64,000 bases of DNA from Candidatus Cloacimonadota bacterium (GTDB taxonomy: Bacteria > Cloacimonadota > Cloacimonadia > Cloacimonadales > Cloacimonadaceae): contig JAJBAY010000002.1 of NCBI GenBank assembly GCA_020532515.1, positions 1-64,000 of the forward strand, read 5' to 3'. The first letter of the stretch is position 1. Every line of letters begins with the position of its first letter. The notes under the pieces were generated by a model. The model had not been told where the DNA came from. It saw only the letters and a program-made list of their open reading frames with translations, and searched no databases. This document shows, piece after piece, positions 8,752 to 16,493 of this stretch. The position numbers and the translations under genes were made by a program.

Positions 8752-10128
8752 TTAAAGCGTTTCAAAAGTAGCGGTGAAGTGGCGCATAATAGGCGCTTCA
8801 TACTTTATCTTCAGTCCGCGATAAGCTTCACGTTTGGCCCAGATTTGCTGTAGTCCCCAGACCACTATGTCCATGTGATTATTGGTATATACACGACGGG
8901 GGATGGCCAGCCGGAGCAGTTCCATCTTGGGAATGCGTTCCACGCGGGTCTCGGGATCCCGGTCTGCCAGTACTGTACCGATTTCCACTCCGCGCACTCC
9001 GGCTTCCACATACAGCGCCACGCCCAAAACCTGGGCTGGATACTGGGTCTGCGGAATCTGTGGGAAGAAGCTTTTGGCGTCCACATAGATAGCGTGTCCA
9101 CCAGCGGGTTTCACGATTGGGATGCCGAGCTTGGTGATTTCATCGCCCAGATACTTCACCTGCGAGATGCGAGCCTGCAGATAGTCAAATTCCGTGCTTT
9201 CCATGAGGCCGGTGGCCAGGGTTTCCATATCCCGTCCGCTCATGCCACCATAGGTGATGTAGCCTTCAAACATGATGCTGAAGGTGCAGCACTGGCGGTA
9301 AATCTCTTCGCTTCTGAGGCCGATGAATCCACCCATATTGATGATGCCGTCTTTTTTCGCACTCATGGTCATGCCATCAGCATAGCTAAACATCTCTTTC
9401 ACAATCTCTTTGATGGTCTTTTTTTGATAGCCGTCTTCACGAATCTTGATGAAATAGGCGTTTTCAGCGAAGCGCGCAGAATCGAAGATCAAGGGGATCT
9501 TATGCTGTTTGCAGACTTTGGCCACGGCTTTGATATTAGCCATGGAAACCGGCTGTCCGCCTCCGGTATTACAGGTGACGGTGAGAACCATAAAGGGAAT
9601 CTTCTCTACGCCGTGTGCTTTGATACAGGCTTCCAGCTTGGCAATATCCACATTGCCCTTGAAAGGCAGCTCCGAATCCATGTCCGAAGCCTCATCCACA
9701 GTGCAATCCACCGCGATGGCATGACGAAACTCAATATGCCCCTTGGTGGTATCAAAATGAGCGTTTCCGGGAACGAGGTCATGGGCTTTCAGCATCACCG
9801 AAAACAGGACATTTTCTGCAGCTCTACCCTGATGAGTAGGCATGATGTATTCGAAGCCAAGAAGCTCCTGAATAGTCTTTTTCATGCGCAAAAAGCTGCG
9901 GCTTCCGGCGTAACTTTCGTCACCCAGCATGAGGGCAGACCACTGTCTATCGCTCATGGCATTGGTTCCGGAATCTGTGATCAGATCGATATAGACGTCT
10001 TCTGCGTCCAGACTGAAGAGGTTGTATTCGGCCGCTTTGATCTTGGCTTCACGTTGCTCTTTACTCAGGATTTTGAGGGGCTCCACCATCTTGATGCGCC
10101 AGGGTTCTGCGTAAGGCTGCTTGTTCAT
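8752..10128 (-). CDS. tnaA: Tryptophanase (tryptophan indole-lyase)
   Basis: A PLP-dependent beta-eliminating lyase of the tryptophanase/tyrosine phenol-lyase family, about 458 residues, cleaving tryptophan to indole, pyruvate and ammonia. The PLP Lys is in MSAKKDG. Two discriminating sites favour tryptophanase: FDTTKGH has Asp where phenol-lyases have Thr, and GVEIGT has Ile where phenol-lyases carry the Arg of SMERG. I start at the ATG with GGAGA 4-5 bp upstream (MNKQPYAEP), not at an ATG 30 bp earlier. No TnaC-like leader or permease is visible. It is transcribed alone, toward gcvH. Confidence 0.88.
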   Translation of the reverse strand: MNKQPYAEPWRIKMVEPLKILSKEQREAKIKAAEYNLFSLDAEDVYIDLITDSGTNAMSDRQWSALMLGDESYAGSRSFLRMKKTIQELLGFEYIMPTHQGRAAENVLFSVMLKAHDLVPGNAHFDTTKGHIEFRHAIAVDCTVDEASDMDSELPFKGNVDIAKLEACIKAHGVEKIPFMVLTVTCNTGGGQPVSMANIKAVAKVCKQHKIPLIFDSARFAENAYFIKIREDGYQKKTIKEIVKEMFSYADGMTMSAKKDGIINMGGFIGLRSEEIYRQCCTFSIMFEGYITYGGMSGRDMETLATGLMESTEFDYLQARISQVKYLGDEITKLGIPIVKPAGGHAIYVDAKSFFPQIPQTQYPAQVLGVALYVEAGVRGVEIGTVLADRDPETRVERIPKMELLRLAIPRRVYTNNHMDIVVWGLQQIWAKREAYRGLKIKYEAPIMRHFTATFETL

Positions 10129-10346
10129 GTTTTCTCCATATATCTTATTATTTATCATTAATAAAGTAGTTTGAGCTTAAAAGCAAAGTCCAGTACAGGC
10201 TATTTGTGTCAAATCTTTTTTGCTCTGGGAGCAAGTGCCGGGCTCTGGACTGCGGGTATCTGATAGTGATTTCAAGCTTTCTTATCAAAGATCCAAGGTG
10301 CTTTGTCGTTCATTTCACCCCCTTGCCTTTGTCACGCTTTCCACAC

Positions 10347-10368
10347 GTCTTCGACTCGAGTCGAAGAC
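10347..10368. repeat. Perfect 22-bp palindrome
   Basis: GTCTTCGACTC is followed immediately by its exact complement GAGTCGAAGAC. Pairing continues outward for three bases (ACA/TGT) after one mismatch. A related interrupted version lies at 22613-22662, with arms GTCTTCGTCTCGAG and CTCGAGTCGAAGAC. Confidence 0.9.
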
Positions 10369-10534
10369 ATGTTAAAAGCAAATTGAAGGCTAAAGTGGCT
10401 TTTCGGTGTGGCTCATATTAGGTCTCATCGAACCCATAATCAGAATATTAGATAGAAAGCCCAAAAGTCGCCATAACCCTAAAACGCTGTAACGTTAATA
10501 CTTTAAAACGGATCTAAATACAATTATAGCGGTA

Positions 10535-10610
10535 TAGGCAGAACGGGAGTCCGCCACCACGGTAAAACGTTAAATCCATAAAACGCTAAAACTTTAAACC
10601 CTAAGGCCAC
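10535..10610 (+). repeat. Intergenic repeat A, copy 1 (GC hairpin plus AT-rich tail)
   Basis: A short hairpin-forming stretch (AGGCAGAACGGGAGTCCGCC) followed by ACGGTAAAACG and AAAACGCTAAAACTTTAAA. Copy 2 at 58175-58238 has the same order of blocks. Both are followed by TTGACA ahead of a gene on the plus strand. Confidence 0.8.
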
Positions 10611-10617
10611 AAATCGA

Positions 10618-10646
10618 TTGACAATAAATCCCCCTTATTTTAACTT
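10618..10646 (+). promoter_or_regulatory. Sigma-70-like promoter for the 10664 operon
   Basis: TTGACA at 10618-10623, a 17-bp spacer and TAACTT at 10641-10646, about 18 bp before the ATG. GAGGA is the ribosome site. The leader would be very short. Confidence 0.5.
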
Positions 10647-10663
10647 TACTCTATGAGGATTAA

Positions 10664-13126
10664 ATGAAGCTTTATCACCCTTTTAGCCACGGGTTTATCG
10701 TGCTGATCACGCTTGCTATCATGCTGAGCGCTGGCCTGTTGAATGCCGGTGAGATCCTGTCTGATCAGGAGATAAAGGCATTGTCAAGTCTTTTGGCGGA
10801 GCAGGATCTGAACCTTATGCATACTGAGTTTTATCGGGATTGGGACCCTTATACCAAGGCTAAGACTAAGTGGCACATGAATATTCTGCAAAAAGGTTTG
10901 GGAGCAAATGGCCAGATCGACGACTTGCGCACCCTGATGGCGACAAAAGATTGGAACGCTATGCTCCGGCACTTTGCTGGTGTAGCTTGGGAGATCGATC
11001 TTGTCCACAGGCCTGCCACAGCCATGAACTTCAAGAATCCTAAAGCGCTATTTCGCTATGTGGAAGCGGCTTATGACCAAATCTCTAAAGATCTTGAGGC
11101 AAGCTTTGCCCAACTTTCAGCTTCCGAGGCCGATAGCCTCTCGGCTTTCTTGTTCTTGGTGATGACCGAGAGCGAAAACGAAGAATCCTCCCGCAATTAT
11201 CTTGAGCAGAATAAGCTGCCCTATCTGGAAGAAATTGATATCGAGGACTATAGCCCTCTTCTGGAAAAGCTGGATTTTGCCCGTCTGGGTGAGGCCATGA
11301 TGTCCATGCGCGCTCTATATACCCAGATCTCGAGCTACCGTCCTTTACATAAAAAAGCTACGCTATACCGGAGCAAATACGGCCTCATGATCATCGGCAG
11401 CAAGGGGGCAGATCACTATAGTCCAGCCACGCTCAAAGCCTTGAAAGATATGCCTGTATGCCTGCTCATCGAGCCCGCTGGCAATGATATCTACGAACTG
11501 CCTCTATCTACCGGACGGGATCATCCCTTTCTGCTGCATATAGATCACGAGGGTGATGATGTTTATCGCAGCCAGGAGCCTTGTTTCTTCGCTTTTCGGG
11601 GGATCGCACTTTCCAGCGATCTGGAAGGAGACGATATTTATCAATTGGGCGACTTTTCTTTCGCCTCAGTCCTCGGCGTACAGATGCACATAGATGCCTA
11701 TGGTGATGATACTTACCGCGGGGGACTATTCTCTTTAGGAGCAGGAATAGCCGGACTGAGTTTGCTCATCGATGAAGCCGGAAACGATGCTTACAGTGCT
11801 CATGTTTGTGCTCAGGCCTTTGGCTCCACCTATGGCGCCGGGGTTTTGGCGGACTATGCTGGCGCTGATACTTACTATCTGGGTGGCAAATACTTACATG
11901 CTCCACTGATGCCATACGACTATCGCACCATGGGCCAGGGCATGGGCTATGGAATGCGCCCCTATCTGGCTGGTGGACTGGGCTTTCTCTATGATGGAGC
12001 TGGCAACGACAAATATCTGGGCGGAGTGTATGCACAGGGTGTGGGCTATTGGTACAGCACCGGAGTGCTGATCGATGAAGACGGAAATGACGTCTATAAT
12101 GCCATTTACTATCCCCAGGGCTCCGGCATCCACATGGCCGCTGGCGTCCTCTATGACCACGCGGGTGATGACGCTTATTACAGCCGCCATGGACCCGGTC
12201 AAGGAGCTGGTCACGACTGGAGTTTTGGCATGCTGATAGATAGCGCCGGCAATGATGCCTACTCCGTCGAAGGCGGAGGTGGGGTTGGCCTGACCAACTC
12301 CCTGGGTGTCTTCGTGGATAAATCCGGAAACGACCGCTATGAACGCAAGAATGCCCAAAACTACGGCAGCGCCAATTTCTCCCGCAATACCGGAGGCATT
12401 GGGCTCTTTTTGGATGCCGGCGGTGAGGATAGCTATCCTGCTGAAGATATAGAGAATAACAGCTCCTGGACCAAGGGTAAATATGGCCTGGGTCAAGACC
12501 TGGAGCTAAACGCCTTGCCCGAGCAAAAAGAAGAGGTCAAATACGAGCAAGATCCTGCTCCTGCATCCGATGCACCCATCAAGGAGATCTTTGCAGCAGC
12601 TTCCGAATGGGAAGTGGGCTCCAGTGTGGATAGAGTTCGCGCTGCCCGCCAGATCTTAAATGAGCGTCCCCAGGAAGCTGCGCCCTATATTCTGGAACAT
12701 AAACTGGCCAACAATTCCGGCCTCGAATACCGGACTTTGGAAGCTTTTACCAAGGCCAATACAGACTTCAGAGACCTGCTCTTAAGCTATGCAGACAATC
12801 CCGATTCACTGAAAGCCAAGACCGTAATCTCGCTTTTGGCAGGTGAAAAAGACCTGCGTTTGCTGCCCTATATTGAGCAGCATCTGGCCGCTGAGAGATA
12901 TCTCGCCACCTGCATTTCCGTCTTGGGCAGTCTGGACGATCCCCGCAGTCTCGAGCTTCTCAAAGCTCATCAAAATCAAGATAATGAACGCCTCCGCTTT
13001 CTCGTGGTTCGCGCCCTGAGTATGCACAGTAGTGAGGCCGCAAAAATAGCGCTTGAATCCTTTCGCACTGACGAATCCTTCCTGATTCAGGCCTTAATCC
13101 GTAATCTGCCAAAGGATAAATTATGA
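10664..13126 (+). CDS. Secreted G-N-D-x-Y repeat protein with C-terminal HEAT-like repeats
   Basis: 820 residues and not a family I can name. A signal peptide (residues 1-28, ending LNA) is followed by a helical region to about 260. About ten repeats of 25-35 residues then carry a core such as DEAGNDAY, DEDGNDVY, DHAGDDAY or DSAGNDAY, each preceded by a small Gly/Ala-rich hydrophobic strand. The Asp/Asn/Gly-rich turns look like calcium-binding beta-roll or beta-solenoid turns. Residues from about 650 to the end are alpha-helical pairs typical of HEAT repeats. The stop overlaps the rsmG start (ATGA), so an exported protein is translationally coupled to an rRNA methyltransferase. It probably acts in the periplasm or on the cell surface. 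Confidence 0.75.
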   Translation: MKLYHPFSHGFIVLITLAIMLSAGLLNAGEILSDQEIKALSSLLAEQDLNLMHTEFYRDWDPYTKAKTKWHMNILQKGLGANGQIDDLRTLMATKDWNAMLRHFAGVAWEIDLVHRPATAMNFKNPKALFRYVEAAYDQISKDLEASFAQLSASEADSLSAFLFLVMTESENEESSRNYLEQNKLPYLEEIDIEDYSPLLEKLDFARLGEAMMSMRALYTQISSYRPLHKKATLYRSKYGLMIIGSKGADHYSPATLKALKDMPVCLLIEPAGNDIYELPLSTGRDHPFLLHIDHEGDDVYRSQEPCFFAFRGIALSSDLEGDDIYQLGDFSFASVLGVQMHIDAYGDDTYRGGLFSLGAGIAGLSLLIDEAGNDAYSAHVCAQAFGSTYGAGVLADYAGADTYYLGGKYLHAPLMPYDYRTMGQGMGYGMRPYLAGGLGFLYDGAGNDKYLGGVYAQGVGYWYSTGVLIDEDGNDVYNAIYYPQGSGIHMAAGVLYDHAGDDAYYSRHGPGQGAGHDWSFGMLIDSAGNDAYSVEGGGGVGLTNSLGVFVDKSGNDRYERKNAQNYGSANFSRNTGGIGLFLDAGGEDSYPAEDIENNSSWTKGKYGLGQDLELNALPEQKEEVKYEQDPAPASDAPIKEIFAAASEWEVGSSVDRVRAARQILNERPQEAAPYILEHKLANNSGLEYRTLEAFTKANTDFRDLLLSYADNPDSLKAKTVISLLAGEKDLRLLPYIEQHLAAERYLATCISVLGSLDDPRSLELLKAHQNQDNERLRFLVVRALSMHSSEAAKIALESFRTDESFLIQALIRNLPKDKL

Positions 13127-13764
13127 TCGAAGAAAAACAAGTATTTGAAGACTATCTTACCCAACTAAATTTGCCTGATATCCCACGTTTGATGGGACAA
13201 TTTGAACACTATCACAAGCTTTTGGTAAGCCAAAATCGCGATGTGAATCTGGTCTCCCGCAAAATGCACCCGGATAGCTATTGGGTGCAGCATTTCCTTG
13301 ACAGCTTACTCGTGATAGAATGTGTGGACTTTATAGATAAAACTGTGCTGGACTTCGGTTCGGGCGGCGGTCTGCCTGGTATTCCCATCAAATTGGTGGT
13401 TCCAGACTGCGAAATGGTGCTGCTGGATAGTATTAATAAAAAGACCAAGGCACTGACAGAGATGATTCAAGCGATGTCTTTGCCCAGGATCAGTGTGGAA
13501 TGCTCCCGCTTGGAGGATTATGCCTTCACGCCCCGGCGTCCCAGCTTTGATCTCATCCTCTGCCGGGCGGTGCCTTTGCAGGAGCGGTACTATTCACCCA
13601 TCCGCAGGCTGCTGAAGCCTTCTGGACATTTGGTGATGTACAAATCCCGCACGCTGGACGATCTGAAGGATATCCGCTATGAGGAGATTCTGCTGCGTAC
13701 AGACGATATTCTGGGGCAAAGGCGGCTGGTCAAAATAGCACAGCGCGATCTGATGAAACGTTAA
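13123..13764 (+). CDS. rsmG: 16S rRNA (guanine527-N7)-methyltransferase RsmG
   Basis: 213 residues. The SAM-binding motif LDFGSGGGLPGIPI near residue 85 and the N-terminal NLVSRK block identify RsmG (GidB), which makes m7G527 in 16S rRNA. The length is normal. It overlaps the upstream secreted-protein gene by four bases and is followed after 26 bp by parA, the conserved rsmG-parA-parB order often found near replication origins. Confidence 0.95.
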   Translation: MIEEKQVFEDYLTQLNLPDIPRLMGQFEHYHKLLVSQNRDVNLVSRKMHPDSYWVQHFLDSLLVIECVDFIDKTVLDFGSGGGLPGIPIKLVVPDCEMVLLDSINKKTKALTEMIQAMSLPRISVECSRLEDYAFTPRRPSFDLILCRAVPLQERYYSPIRRLLKPSGHLVMYKSRTLDDLKDIRYEEILLRTDDILGQRRLVKIAQRDLMKR

Positions 13765-13790
13765 AAAGAAGGACGAACGAAAGATATAAG

Positions 13791-14555
13791 ATGGCAAAAA
13801 TAATAACGATTGTAAACCAAAAAGGTGGAGTGGGTAAGACCACTACCACGGTGAATCTGGCGGCGGCTTTGGCGATCCTGGAAAAGCGCACTCTGCTCAT
13901 AGATTTTGACCCTCAGGGCAATGCTACCACTGGAGTGGGGATCGATAAAGCGACGTTAAAATTGCAGATTTACGATGCCCTGATCGGCAGGGTTCCGCTC
14001 ACGGATTGCATCCTGCCCACAGATACTCAGAACCTGTTTTGTGTACCGGGAAACATCGATCTCACCGGCGCGGAAATCGAGCTCGTGCATGAATTTGCGC
14101 GGGAACATAAGCTCAAGGAAGCCTTGCAGAGTATCCAAAACGACTGGGATTATATCTTGATAGATTGCCCGCCGTCCCTGGGGCTTCTGACCGTGAATGC
14201 AATGACCGCCTCCACCGATGTGATCGTGCCTATCCAGTGCGAATACTATGCCCTGGAAGGAGTAAGCCAGCTTCTCACCACCATCCGCCTGATCCAAAAG
14301 AACCTGAACCCGGGCCTCAATATCCTGGGCATACTGCTCACGATGTTTGACAAACGCGTCAATCTCTCCATGCAGGTGGCCAAAGAGGTGCACCGCTATT
14401 TCAAAGAAAAGGTCTTTCGCAGCGTGATCCCCCGCAATATCAAGCTCACCGAAGCGCCCAGCTTTGGCAAACCTATCTTTTTGTACGACATCCGCTCCCC
14501 CGGCGCGATGAGCTATTTGAATCTGGCCAATGAAGTGATTGAGCGTTATAAATAA
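13791..14555 (+). CDS. parA: Chromosome-partitioning ATPase ParA (Soj)
   Basis: 254 residues with a deviant Walker A NQKGGVGKTTTTVNL at residues 8-22, DFDPQGNATTG as the A' motif and DCPPSLGLL as Walker B. This is the chromosomal Soj type: no N-terminal HTH and standard length. It forms the DNA-bound ATP dimer that ParB stimulates during origin segregation. parB follows after 12 bp. Confidence 0.95.
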   Translation: MAKIITIVNQKGGVGKTTTTVNLAAALAILEKRTLLIDFDPQGNATTGVGIDKATLKLQIYDALIGRVPLTDCILPTDTQNLFCVPGNIDLTGAEIELVHEFAREHKLKEALQSIQNDWDYILIDCPPSLGLLTVNAMTASTDVIVPIQCEYYALEGVSQLLTTIRLIQKNLNPGLNILGILLTMFDKRVNLSMQVAKEVHRYFKEKVFRSVIPRNIKLTEAPSFGKPIFLYDIRSPGAMSYLNLANEVIERYK

Positions 14556-14567
14556 AGAGGATATGAG

Positions 14568-15416
14568 ATGAACGAACATCTTGGCCGTGGACTTTCTGCC
14601 CTGATTCCGGACAGGGAAAAAGACGATAATATCAAAGCCGGAATCGGCACTCTGCCCATCGACAGGATCAAGCCAAACCGCTATCAACCGCGCCAGAAAT
14701 TCGATCCGGACCGCCTGAGAGAGCTTGCGGAGTCCATCCTGGAAAATGGCATCATTCAGCCCCTCATCGTTACCAAAAGCGAGGGCAGCGACTATGAACT
14801 CATCGCTGGAGAACGCAGGCTGGAAGCGGCTAAACTCGCTGGACTAACCGCGGTGCCGGTGGTAATTCGCTCTGTCTCCAAAAAGGAACAATTGCAGCTC
14901 GCGATCGTGGAAAACATCCAGCGCGAAGATCTCGGGCCCATCGAAGAAGCTATGGCCTATCAGGCTTTGGCACAGGATTTCGGTCTCACCCATGCTCAGA
15001 TCGCCACCACCATGGCCAAAGACCGCGTGACCATCACAAACAGCCTGCGCCTGCTCAAGCTGCCAGACGATGTGATCGAACTGGTGGCCTCGGAAGAACT
15101 TACCGCCGGACACGCCAGAGCCGTGCTCATGGTGCAGCCGGAATACCAGATCCTCTTTGCGCGCCACATCATCAAGTATAAGCTCAGCGTACGCCAGGCC
15201 GAAGAAAAGGCCAAGACCTACGTGAGCAGCCTGCAACAAGGCGAAGCAGAGCCCAAAAAGAATCCCCTTACCCGCAGTTTTGAGCGGGAACTGGGCTCCA
15301 TCTTCCCAGGCAAAGTAAGCGTGCGCGAATACAAGGGCAAGGGCAAGATCACCCTGGAATACAAAAGCCCTGAGGAATTCGAACAAATCAAAAATATAAT
15401 AGATAAACTGAGGTAA
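14568..15416 (+). CDS. parB: Chromosome-partitioning protein ParB (Spo0J)
   Basis: 282 residues. An N-terminal ParA-activating stretch (HLGRGLSALIPD) is followed by the CTPase/nuclease-fold domain with AGERRLEAAK and ENIQREDLGPIEEA, a central HTH (about 140-210: THAQIATTMAKDRVTITNSL) and a C-terminal dimerisation domain. It loads at parS sites and slides as a CTP clamp. I did not find a parS consensus by eye in the neighbourhood. The stop is 3 bp before rfbB. Confidence 0.95.
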   Translation: MNEHLGRGLSALIPDREKDDNIKAGIGTLPIDRIKPNRYQPRQKFDPDRLRELAESILENGIIQPLIVTKSEGSDYELIAGERRLEAAKLAGLTAVPVVIRSVSKKEQLQLAIVENIQREDLGPIEEAMAYQALAQDFGLTHAQIATTMAKDRVTITNSLRLLKLPDDVIELVASEELTAGHARAVLMVQPEYQILFARHIIKYKLSVRQAEEKAKTYVSSLQQGEAEPKKNPLTRSFERELGSIFPGKVSVREYKGKGKITLEYKSPEEFEQIKNIIDKLR

Positions 15417-15419
15417 ATC

Positions 15420-16493
15420 ATGAACAAAGTATTAGTTACTGGAGGAGCCGGTTTTATCGGCGCAAACTACATCAATAAGCTTTTTGCTGATCCCGCCTTC
15501 AAGGGCAAAGTGCTCAATCTGGATGCCTTAACCTATGCCGGAAACCTGGAATCTCTTGAAGCGATCGATGCCAAATATGGCCGTGACCGCTACTTCTTTG
15601 AACACGCCGATATCTGCGATGTGAGCAAAGTAAACCGCATATTCAAGGACTTTCAGCCCGATACTGTCGTGAATTTCGCTGCCGAATCACACGTGGATCG
15701 CTCCATTGATGGGCCTCTGCAATTTGTGCAGACGAACGTGATGGGCACAGCCACCCTGCTCGCAGCAGCTATGGATATGTACCGCACGCTGTCTGAGCAA
15801 GAAAAGCAGGCCTTCCGCTTTCATCACGTCTCTACCGATGAAGTCTATGGCTCCTTGGGCGATACAGGCCTGTTTACAGAAGAAACCCCCTATGACCCCT
15901 CCTCTCCCTATTCCGCATCCAAAGCGGCGAGTGACCATCTCCTCAGAGCCTGGCAGCGCACCTTTGGCCTGCCTGTGACCATCTCAAATTGCTCCAATAA
16001 CTACGGGGGCTATCAATTCCCCGAAAAGCTAATCCCTCTGATGATTCTCAACTGCCTGGAGCACAAGCCTCTCCCCGTATATGGCAAAGGCCTGAACGTG
16101 CGGGATTGGCTCTATGTGGATGATCACTGCGAAGCCATCAATACCATCATCAAACGTGGTAGAACCGGCGAAACCTATAACATCGGCGGGCATAACGAGA
16201 TCAAGAACATCGATATCGTAGGCATTATCTGCGAGATTCTCGATGAAATGGAGCCCTCCACAAAGCTGAAGAGCTATAAAGAGCTCATCACCTATGTTAC
16301 AGATCGCCCCGGCCACGACCTGCGCTACGCCATCGATGCCAGCAAGATCGAGCACGAACTGGGCTGGAAGCCCAAAGAAACCTTTGATACCGGCATCCGC
16401 AAGACCGTAGCCTGGTATCTGGACAACCGCCAGTGGTGGAAAAACATCCAGGATAAGAGCTATCAACAGCAAAGACTGGGAACCATAAAGTAA
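15420..16493 (+). CDS. rfbB: dTDP-glucose 4,6-dehydratase
   Basis: 357 residues, an extended short-chain dehydrogenase with [10 protein letters not shown] for NAD binding, [11 protein letters not shown] with the catalytic Asp/Glu pair and [10 protein letters not shown] (YxxxK). It converts dTDP-glucose to dTDP-4-keto-6-deoxyglucose for O-antigen or other deoxysugars. The other rml genes are absent. It follows parB by 3 bp, so it is expressed with the partition genes. Confidence 0.93.

Follow-up and report, generated by a model that had tools for sequence, protein, structure and literature searches.

The gene at positions 10,664 to 13,126 of the window (the whole 64,000-nucleotide stretch of Candidatus Cloacimonadota DNA analysed here) encodes a member of a widespread, unnamed family of predicted beta-solenoids that is paired with HEAT repeats and appears to bear a near-invariant site, and this family is what is new here. 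We give roughly an even chance to the reading in which the protein is exported, its solenoid is stabilised by cations and carries one catalytic or ligand-binding site, the HEAT part assists that site, and no function is shared with rsmG, the gene that follows.

Layout of the solenoid-HEAT protein

The following features were assigned to the gene and its product.

10655..10659, + strand: GAGGA, Shine-Dalgarno-like, of the solenoid gene (read in the sequence)
10664..13126, + strand: solenoid-HEAT gene (P0001), an 820-residue open reading frame with an ATG start
10664..10747, + strand: signal-peptide-like N-terminus, residues 1-28 (simple rule; inferred cleavage site)
10751..11368, + strand: N-terminal helical region, residues 30-235 (low-confidence model; profile matches in other phyla)
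11369..12499, + strand: predicted beta-solenoid domain, residues 236-612 (alignment A3; covariation at one-coil spacing)
11471..12436, + strand: twelve [DE]xxGxDxY repeats, residues 270-591 (motif count)
12569..13108, + strand: C-terminal HEAT array, residues 636-815 (profile against PDB, E 5.1e-57)

The full length of this protein is kept across much of Cloacimonadota, and the closest named record, from Candidatus Cloacimonadota BF1 Bin 88 (L031), is 90% identical. Residues ~30-235 make up a third part that was absent from the preliminary description; its helical character comes solely from a low-confidence model, and a profile of the region also recognises homologues in other phyla.

Regarding the upstream gap, an inverted repeat with 22-nt arms and no loop lies at 10336-10379 and contains the perfect palindrome CTTCGACTCGAGTCGAAG, of which the window holds one copy where none is expected. 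Degenerate TAAAACGyT-like elements, partly in 8-nt steps, occupy 10475-10606. A search of 10100-15500 against Rfam gave no match.

Tandem repeats and probable stacking of coils

The motif [DE]xxGxDx[YF] occurs twelve times in the protein, at residues 270, 294, 319, 344, 370, 397, 444, 471, 498, 526, 552 and 584, whereas 2000 shuffles of the protein gave a mean of 0.074 and a maximum of 2. The spacing is 24-32 residues, with a single interval of 47, so that the preliminary description, which had counted about ten GNDxY-type repeats of 25-35 residues, was right apart from a slight undercount.

Covariation was analysed on 194 sequences (effective number 149). Among the 50 top pairs, 17 were 22-33 residues apart compared to 3.0 expected, and the mean score was highest at separations of 25-28. 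The long coil is bridged by covarying pairs 47 residues apart (393-440 and 395-442), which is its own motif spacing. Within one residue of the motif register were 14 of the 100 top pairs, where about 1.1 would be expected and where five column shuffles, which lose the relatedness of the sequences, gave 0-2; 12 such pairs were found with Cloacimonadota alone and 5 with outside sequences alone. Because the shuffles lose relatedness, and because gene conversion between similar repeats could add covariation, these values are taken as support for stacked coils and not as proof. Together they indirectly suggest that the coil-length repeats stack in register, as expected of a beta-solenoid.

The AlphaFold2 models were of low confidence, with mean pLDDT of 38.7 for the window protein and 42.3 for L031. 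A Foldseek search returned nothing at E<=0.001, and its weak matches happened to be mostly beta-helices. One of them, at a non-significant E of 3.6, was 4peu, the structure of Cthe_2159, a calcium-bound protein resembling polysaccharide lyases. Right-handed parallel beta-helix proteins, such as Cthe_2159 and pectin-acting enzymes, are exported, as the present protein appears to be, and have coil lengths in the range of the present solenoid. They differ from it in motif and in site residues, and the solenoid has no meaningful sequence match in the PDB.

Each coil carries two invariant Asp residues (DxxGxD), an arrangement compatible with a cation ladder. As the Asp residues of neighbouring coils would otherwise repel each other, cations would presumably bind there, and calcium is the likely one; the label calcium-like of the preliminary description thus stands as a presumption.

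Such a ladder is presumed also in the RTX calcium beta-rolls (PF00353), which share with the window protein a G-N-D-x-aromatic/hydrophobic motif along the coil. The RTX motif is GGxGND, which GNDxY resembles, and an RTX coil consists of two 9-residue repeats per 18-residue coil. That the protein is an RTX-type calcium beta-roll leaving the cell by type I export, a reading that draws on this likeness, is nevertheless very improbable and largely refuted: HemolysinCabind (PF00353) matched neither P0001 nor any of 30 solenoids at E<=1, the coil is 24-28 residues long instead of 18, the N-terminus resembles a Sec-type signal peptide, and there are near-invariant residues outside the repeat. RTX membership was rejected on the unmatched PF00353 model, the motif spacing of 24-32 and the covariation peak at 25-28.

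Family searches and distribution

No model of Pfam, NCBIfam or PHROGs covers residues 236-612. When 30 solenoids were searched singly against Pfam, the weak matches were scattered and pointed to no common family; DUF2754, for example, was matched by one member of A3 at E 3.5e-4 and by none of the other 29. The family profile found PDB sequences in its HEAT part only, save matches at E >= 0.085. The claim that the protein belongs to no known family is thus borne out for the solenoid in Pfam, NCBIfam, PHROGs and PDB sequences. In the literature, no description was found in the titles and abstract openings covered for the motif, for a solenoid combined with HEAT repeats or for core or envelope proteins of Cloacimonadota, and the passages of PMC13082233 covered do not concern the solenoid-HEAT protein.

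Homologues of P0001 (E<=1e-5) are present in 106 of 124 Cloacimonadota genomes; among the 70 high-quality genomes the number is 65. A solenoid-only profile (A3), built from 30 sequences chosen from the collected loci and run on 195 genomes, matched 13 of 71 out-of-phylum genomes, with a best E of 7e-126. Further searches in four other phyla, built around four of these 13 genomes, detected the solenoid in 35/39, 16/17, 76/80 and 4/4 genomes, the 80 being drawn from a larger group.

A phage or plasmid origin was also considered and rejected. The full protein had no match at E<=0.01 among PLSDB plasmids and phage records; the solenoid alone gave on plasmids only matches of a weak type (28.8% identity, 20% coverage, E>=1, among the best 20 of 44 records); and 0 of 28 pattern stretches on viral contigs were confirmed.

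Two deviating groups should be mentioned. Four loci of a single genome, G157 (L119, L122, L123 and L127), carry solenoids fused to PQQ-type beta-propellers (three) or to an AhpC/TSA redoxin (one). L111, L154-L161, L226 and similar loci form a more distant paralogue group of ~720-1140 residues, mostly without HEAT outside the phylum.

Pairing with HEAT repeats

In the window protein, Pfam HEAT_2 matches residues 748-814 at E 3.3e-5 and 24.5 bits, below the cut-off of 27.7. A profile of 30 homologues, however, matched alphaRep/HEAT structures over profile positions ~655-815, the best E being 5.1e-57; comparison of the family profile with solved proteins thus upholds the C-terminal HEAT array of the preliminary description. 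The C-terminal part and the separate partners described below are HEAT repeats like those of the HEAT/alphaRep-like proteins (PF13646, HEAT_2), from which they differ in being exported, as it appears, and in being fused to or placed beside an unnamed solenoid.

Outside the phylum, pairing was scored with a profile derived from the HEAT segment of A2 and counted when the match fell in the same protein or lay on the same strand no more than 2.5 kb downstream, with the duplicate loci L144, L191, L200 and L225 excluded. At the 70 strong loci (solenoid at least 300 bits), HEAT was fused in 28, encoded by a downstream gene in 30 and found as neither in 12. These 12 include L153, where the gene is cut by the contig, L119, a propeller fusion, L206, where HEAT lies further along and is contained in the longer locus L242, and L215, whose HEAT gene (E 2e-26) fails the distance rule. 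Only 3 of the 21 weaker outside solenoids had HEAT, and 18 did not. Across the 91 outside loci, separate HEAT genes were downstream in 32 cases and upstream in none; the partner in L233, for instance, reaches 133.5 bits with HEAT_2 against the cut-off of 27.7.

Domains that are fused in some lineages and encoded by adjacent genes in others are a classic sign of joint action. As solenoid and HEAT repeats are fused or adjacent across phyla, and the HEAT gene is never upstream, the two probably work as a pair. The loci lacking HEAT under this rule, 12 of the 70 strong and 18 of the 21 weak ones, suggest that the solenoid can also exist without a HEAT part.

At L115, L200 and L201 a gene of 292-294 residues lies between the solenoid and HEAT genes, and at L115 an Omp85 match on the same contig overlaps the following gene.

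A near-invariant set of residues

Residue counts are given in the order Cloacimonadota, strong outside and weak outside sequences (109, 70 and 21 rows), gapped rows being excluded from each denominator.

11957..11959, + strand: Arg432, a non-repeat residue (106/106, 70/70, 20/20)
12047..12052, + strand: Tyr462-Trp463 (Tyr 106/106, 70/70, 20/21; Trp 105/106, 70/70, 19/21)
12131..12133, + strand: His490 (104/104, 69/70, 20/21)
12212..12217, + strand: His517-Asp518 (His 104/105, 70/70, 14/21; Asp 105/105, 69/70, 20/21)

Asn545 (100/103, 68/70, 9/21) and Arg574 (104/104, 67/69, 9/20) are further single-copy residues of this kind. The triad of Trp463, His490 and Asp518 is complete in 103 of the 109 Cloacimonadota rows, 5 of the remaining 6 being gapped there, and in 69/70 strong and 19/21 weak outside rows. 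Unlike the Asp, Gly and Tyr that recur in every coil, the near-invariant residues are single-copy. Trp463, His490 and Asp518 each stand eight residues ahead of the opening Asp of the following motif, and this common offset, together with the covariation register, would place them one above the other on three consecutive coils. From this we infer one putative catalytic or ligand-binding site, bearing in mind that conservation by itself cannot separate a catalytic from a binding or folding site.

The alternative of a structural or adhesive envelope protein, that is, a cation-stiffened scaffold or surface fibre whose fixed residues would serve folding or docking, is weighed here. Repeat solenoids are often structural, no enzyme family matches the protein, and the weak, non-significant Foldseek matches include adhesins and curli among the beta-helices. 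Surface scaffolds, on the other hand, usually vary fast, whereas Arg432, Tyr462, Trp463, His490 and Asp518 hardly change across several phyla and occur once each and not in every coil. We regard a purely structural role as a real but rather unlikely possibility, and retain a catalytic or ligand-binding site as the working interpretation of these residues.

Predicted export and neighbouring genes

Export was judged with a simple signal-peptide rule; a looser first version, positive in 43 of 80 RsmG/ParA control frames, was replaced by a stricter one. Among 91 full-length homologues from Cloacimonadota, 80 passed the stricter rule, compared to 0 of 59 RsmG/ParA/ParB controls. It was also passed by 26 of the 32 separate HEAT genes, where the failures mostly resemble misplaced starts, and by 64 of the 91 solenoid proteins from outside the phylum, for which the assignment of starts was crude. 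The solenoid-HEAT protein is thus apparently exported. The preliminary description had called it an unfamiliar exported protein, which is supported by the signal-peptide-like start and by a solenoid without a family in the libraries searched.

The genes around the solenoid gene vary and, apart from HEAT, none is consistent between lineages. Several envelope genes, by count only, stand among them in some lineages. In Cloacimonadota outside the window's family (f1), a SurA-like PPIase (cluster c2) was found at 11 of 63 loci (Pfam of two representatives); according to Pfam searches on representatives, a tricorn/S41 peptidase (c1) occurs at 13 loci, a GT9 glycosyltransferase (c8) at 6, Omp85 (c20) at 3, and LpxB (c40) also lies near the solenoid gene. 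At the c20 loci Omp85 comes after a gene that we presume from its sequence to be ispG. Other outside neighbours are TatC, thiamine pyrophosphokinase, an M42 peptidase and an RNase_H_2 protein. In L227, L228 and also L187, the fused solenoid-HEAT gene lies between ExbB/TolQ-like and ExbD/TolR-like genes (Pfam for L227), an arrangement that belongs to two genomes of another phylum.

The SurA-like PPIase at 11/63 loci, Omp85 at 3 and the ExbB/ExbD-like flanks in two genomes would suit an outer-membrane docking or assembly factor, which would hold unfolded or freshly exported proteins in the manner of a periplasmic chaperone or offer a platform to the ExbBD/Tol or Bam machinery. The neighbours differ by lineage, however, and elsewhere include thiamine pyrophosphokinase with the M42 peptidase, RNase_H_2 and TatC, so that we consider this role improbable. 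Co-occurrence with Omp85 tells nothing, since Omp85 was found in 13 of 13 solenoid-bearing out-of-phylum genomes but also in 52 of the 58 solenoid-free ones.

Linkage to rsmG

Downstream, the solenoid gene runs into the following features.

13111..13116, + strand: AAAGGA, Shine-Dalgarno-like, of rsmG, within the solenoid gene (read in the sequence)
13123..13126, + strand: ATGA overlap of the rsmG ATG (13123-13125) and the solenoid-gene TGA (13124-13126)
13123..13764, + strand: rsmG (16S rRNA G527 methyltransferase; TIGR00138 117 bits against a cut-off of 99.5; GidB)
13791..14555, + strand: parA (Pfam AAA_31)
14568..15416, + strand: parB (Pfam ParB_N, HTH_ParB)

The overlap of the solenoid stop with the rsmG start, upstream of parA-parB, had been reported before and is confirmed by the ATGA and by the TIGR00138 and Pfam assignments. 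In f1, where 46 of 49 genomes carry the solenoid gene, each of the 45 informative loci (44 genomes) has rsmG immediately after it. L031, the same match as L002, was not counted in this linkage; two other f1 loci, L032 and L045, stop at a contig edge; and the second piece of G021 runs on into rsmG. The rsmG start and the stop share four bases at 31 of the 45 loci, 13 further loci have a candidate start in the range from -17 to +25, and at L028 no start was found in the range scanned. The f1 genomes without the gene offer no sound counter-example: in G019 the end of the contig starts approximately at rsmG (L181), G032 has a marginal rsmG match only, and G047 has none. It should be noted that in three f1 genomes (L023, L035 and L037) rsmG matches fall in two reading frames, perhaps owing to assembly errors or decay.

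Outside f1, rsmG was found at 0 of 63 solenoid loci (60 genomes), whereas the same profile detected it in 20 of 20 control loci, 19 of them outside f1 and the twentieth being that of G019. In the 19 non-f1 control loci rsmG is followed by parA and parB, with a small open reading frame in between in two cases; at L170 parA was not called by the ORF picker. The RsmG/GidB-ParA-ParB cluster that adjoins the window gene is therefore kept across the phylum, and the solenoid gene stands next to it only in f1. Phylogenetic distribution of the linkage had been proposed as a check, and in relatives outside f1 rsmG precedes parA-parB without a solenoid gene. The coupling with rsmG accordingly stands as a tight linkage in the window's family and falls as evidence on function; being limited to f1, it has little bearing on it.

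A function shared with rsmG or with ribosome assembly, the overlap serving to match dosage, agrees with the 45/45 linkage and the four-base overlap at 31 of these loci. It is hardly credible given that no locus of the 63 in other families is linked, that rsmG stays with parA-parB and that the protein looks exported; with the linkage confined to one family, we rejected it. As judged from gene order, the overlap appears to couple translation in one family only, as a local accident that reflects no shared function.

Discussion

Taken together, these results fit a scheme for the exported, HEAT-assisted solenoid that can be outlined as follows. The protein would leave the cytoplasm by the Sec route, act in the envelope and consist of three parts: a helical region at the N-terminus, a beta-solenoid of twelve coils and a HEAT array. 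The Asp pairs (DxxGxD) of its coils would align along the solenoid and be neutralised by cations, probably calcium, a need that may allow the coils to fold or stay rigid only outside the cytoplasm. On the middle coils, the near-invariant residues would make up a single site for catalysis or ligand binding, directed at a substrate of the cell envelope, for instance a glycan, and the HEAT array may bind a partner or substrate or present it to this site.

A narrower proposal, which we make tentatively and with clearly less than even expectation, is that these proteins are extracytoplasmic beta-solenoid enzymes of a class so far undescribed, which have an active site of Arg, Tyr-Trp, His and His-Asp and a dedicated HEAT partner and serve, as core components of the envelope in several phyla, a housekeeping activity that has gone unrecognised.

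The split form, in which the solenoid and HEAT parts are encoded by two genes, lets the pairing be examined with two separate proteins, and the list of near-invariant residues points to the mutants of interest. A protein that is near-universal among the sampled genomes of several phyla, apparently exported, endowed with almost fixed residues and covered by no family model of the libraries used here is a good candidate for an unknown core function of the cell envelope.
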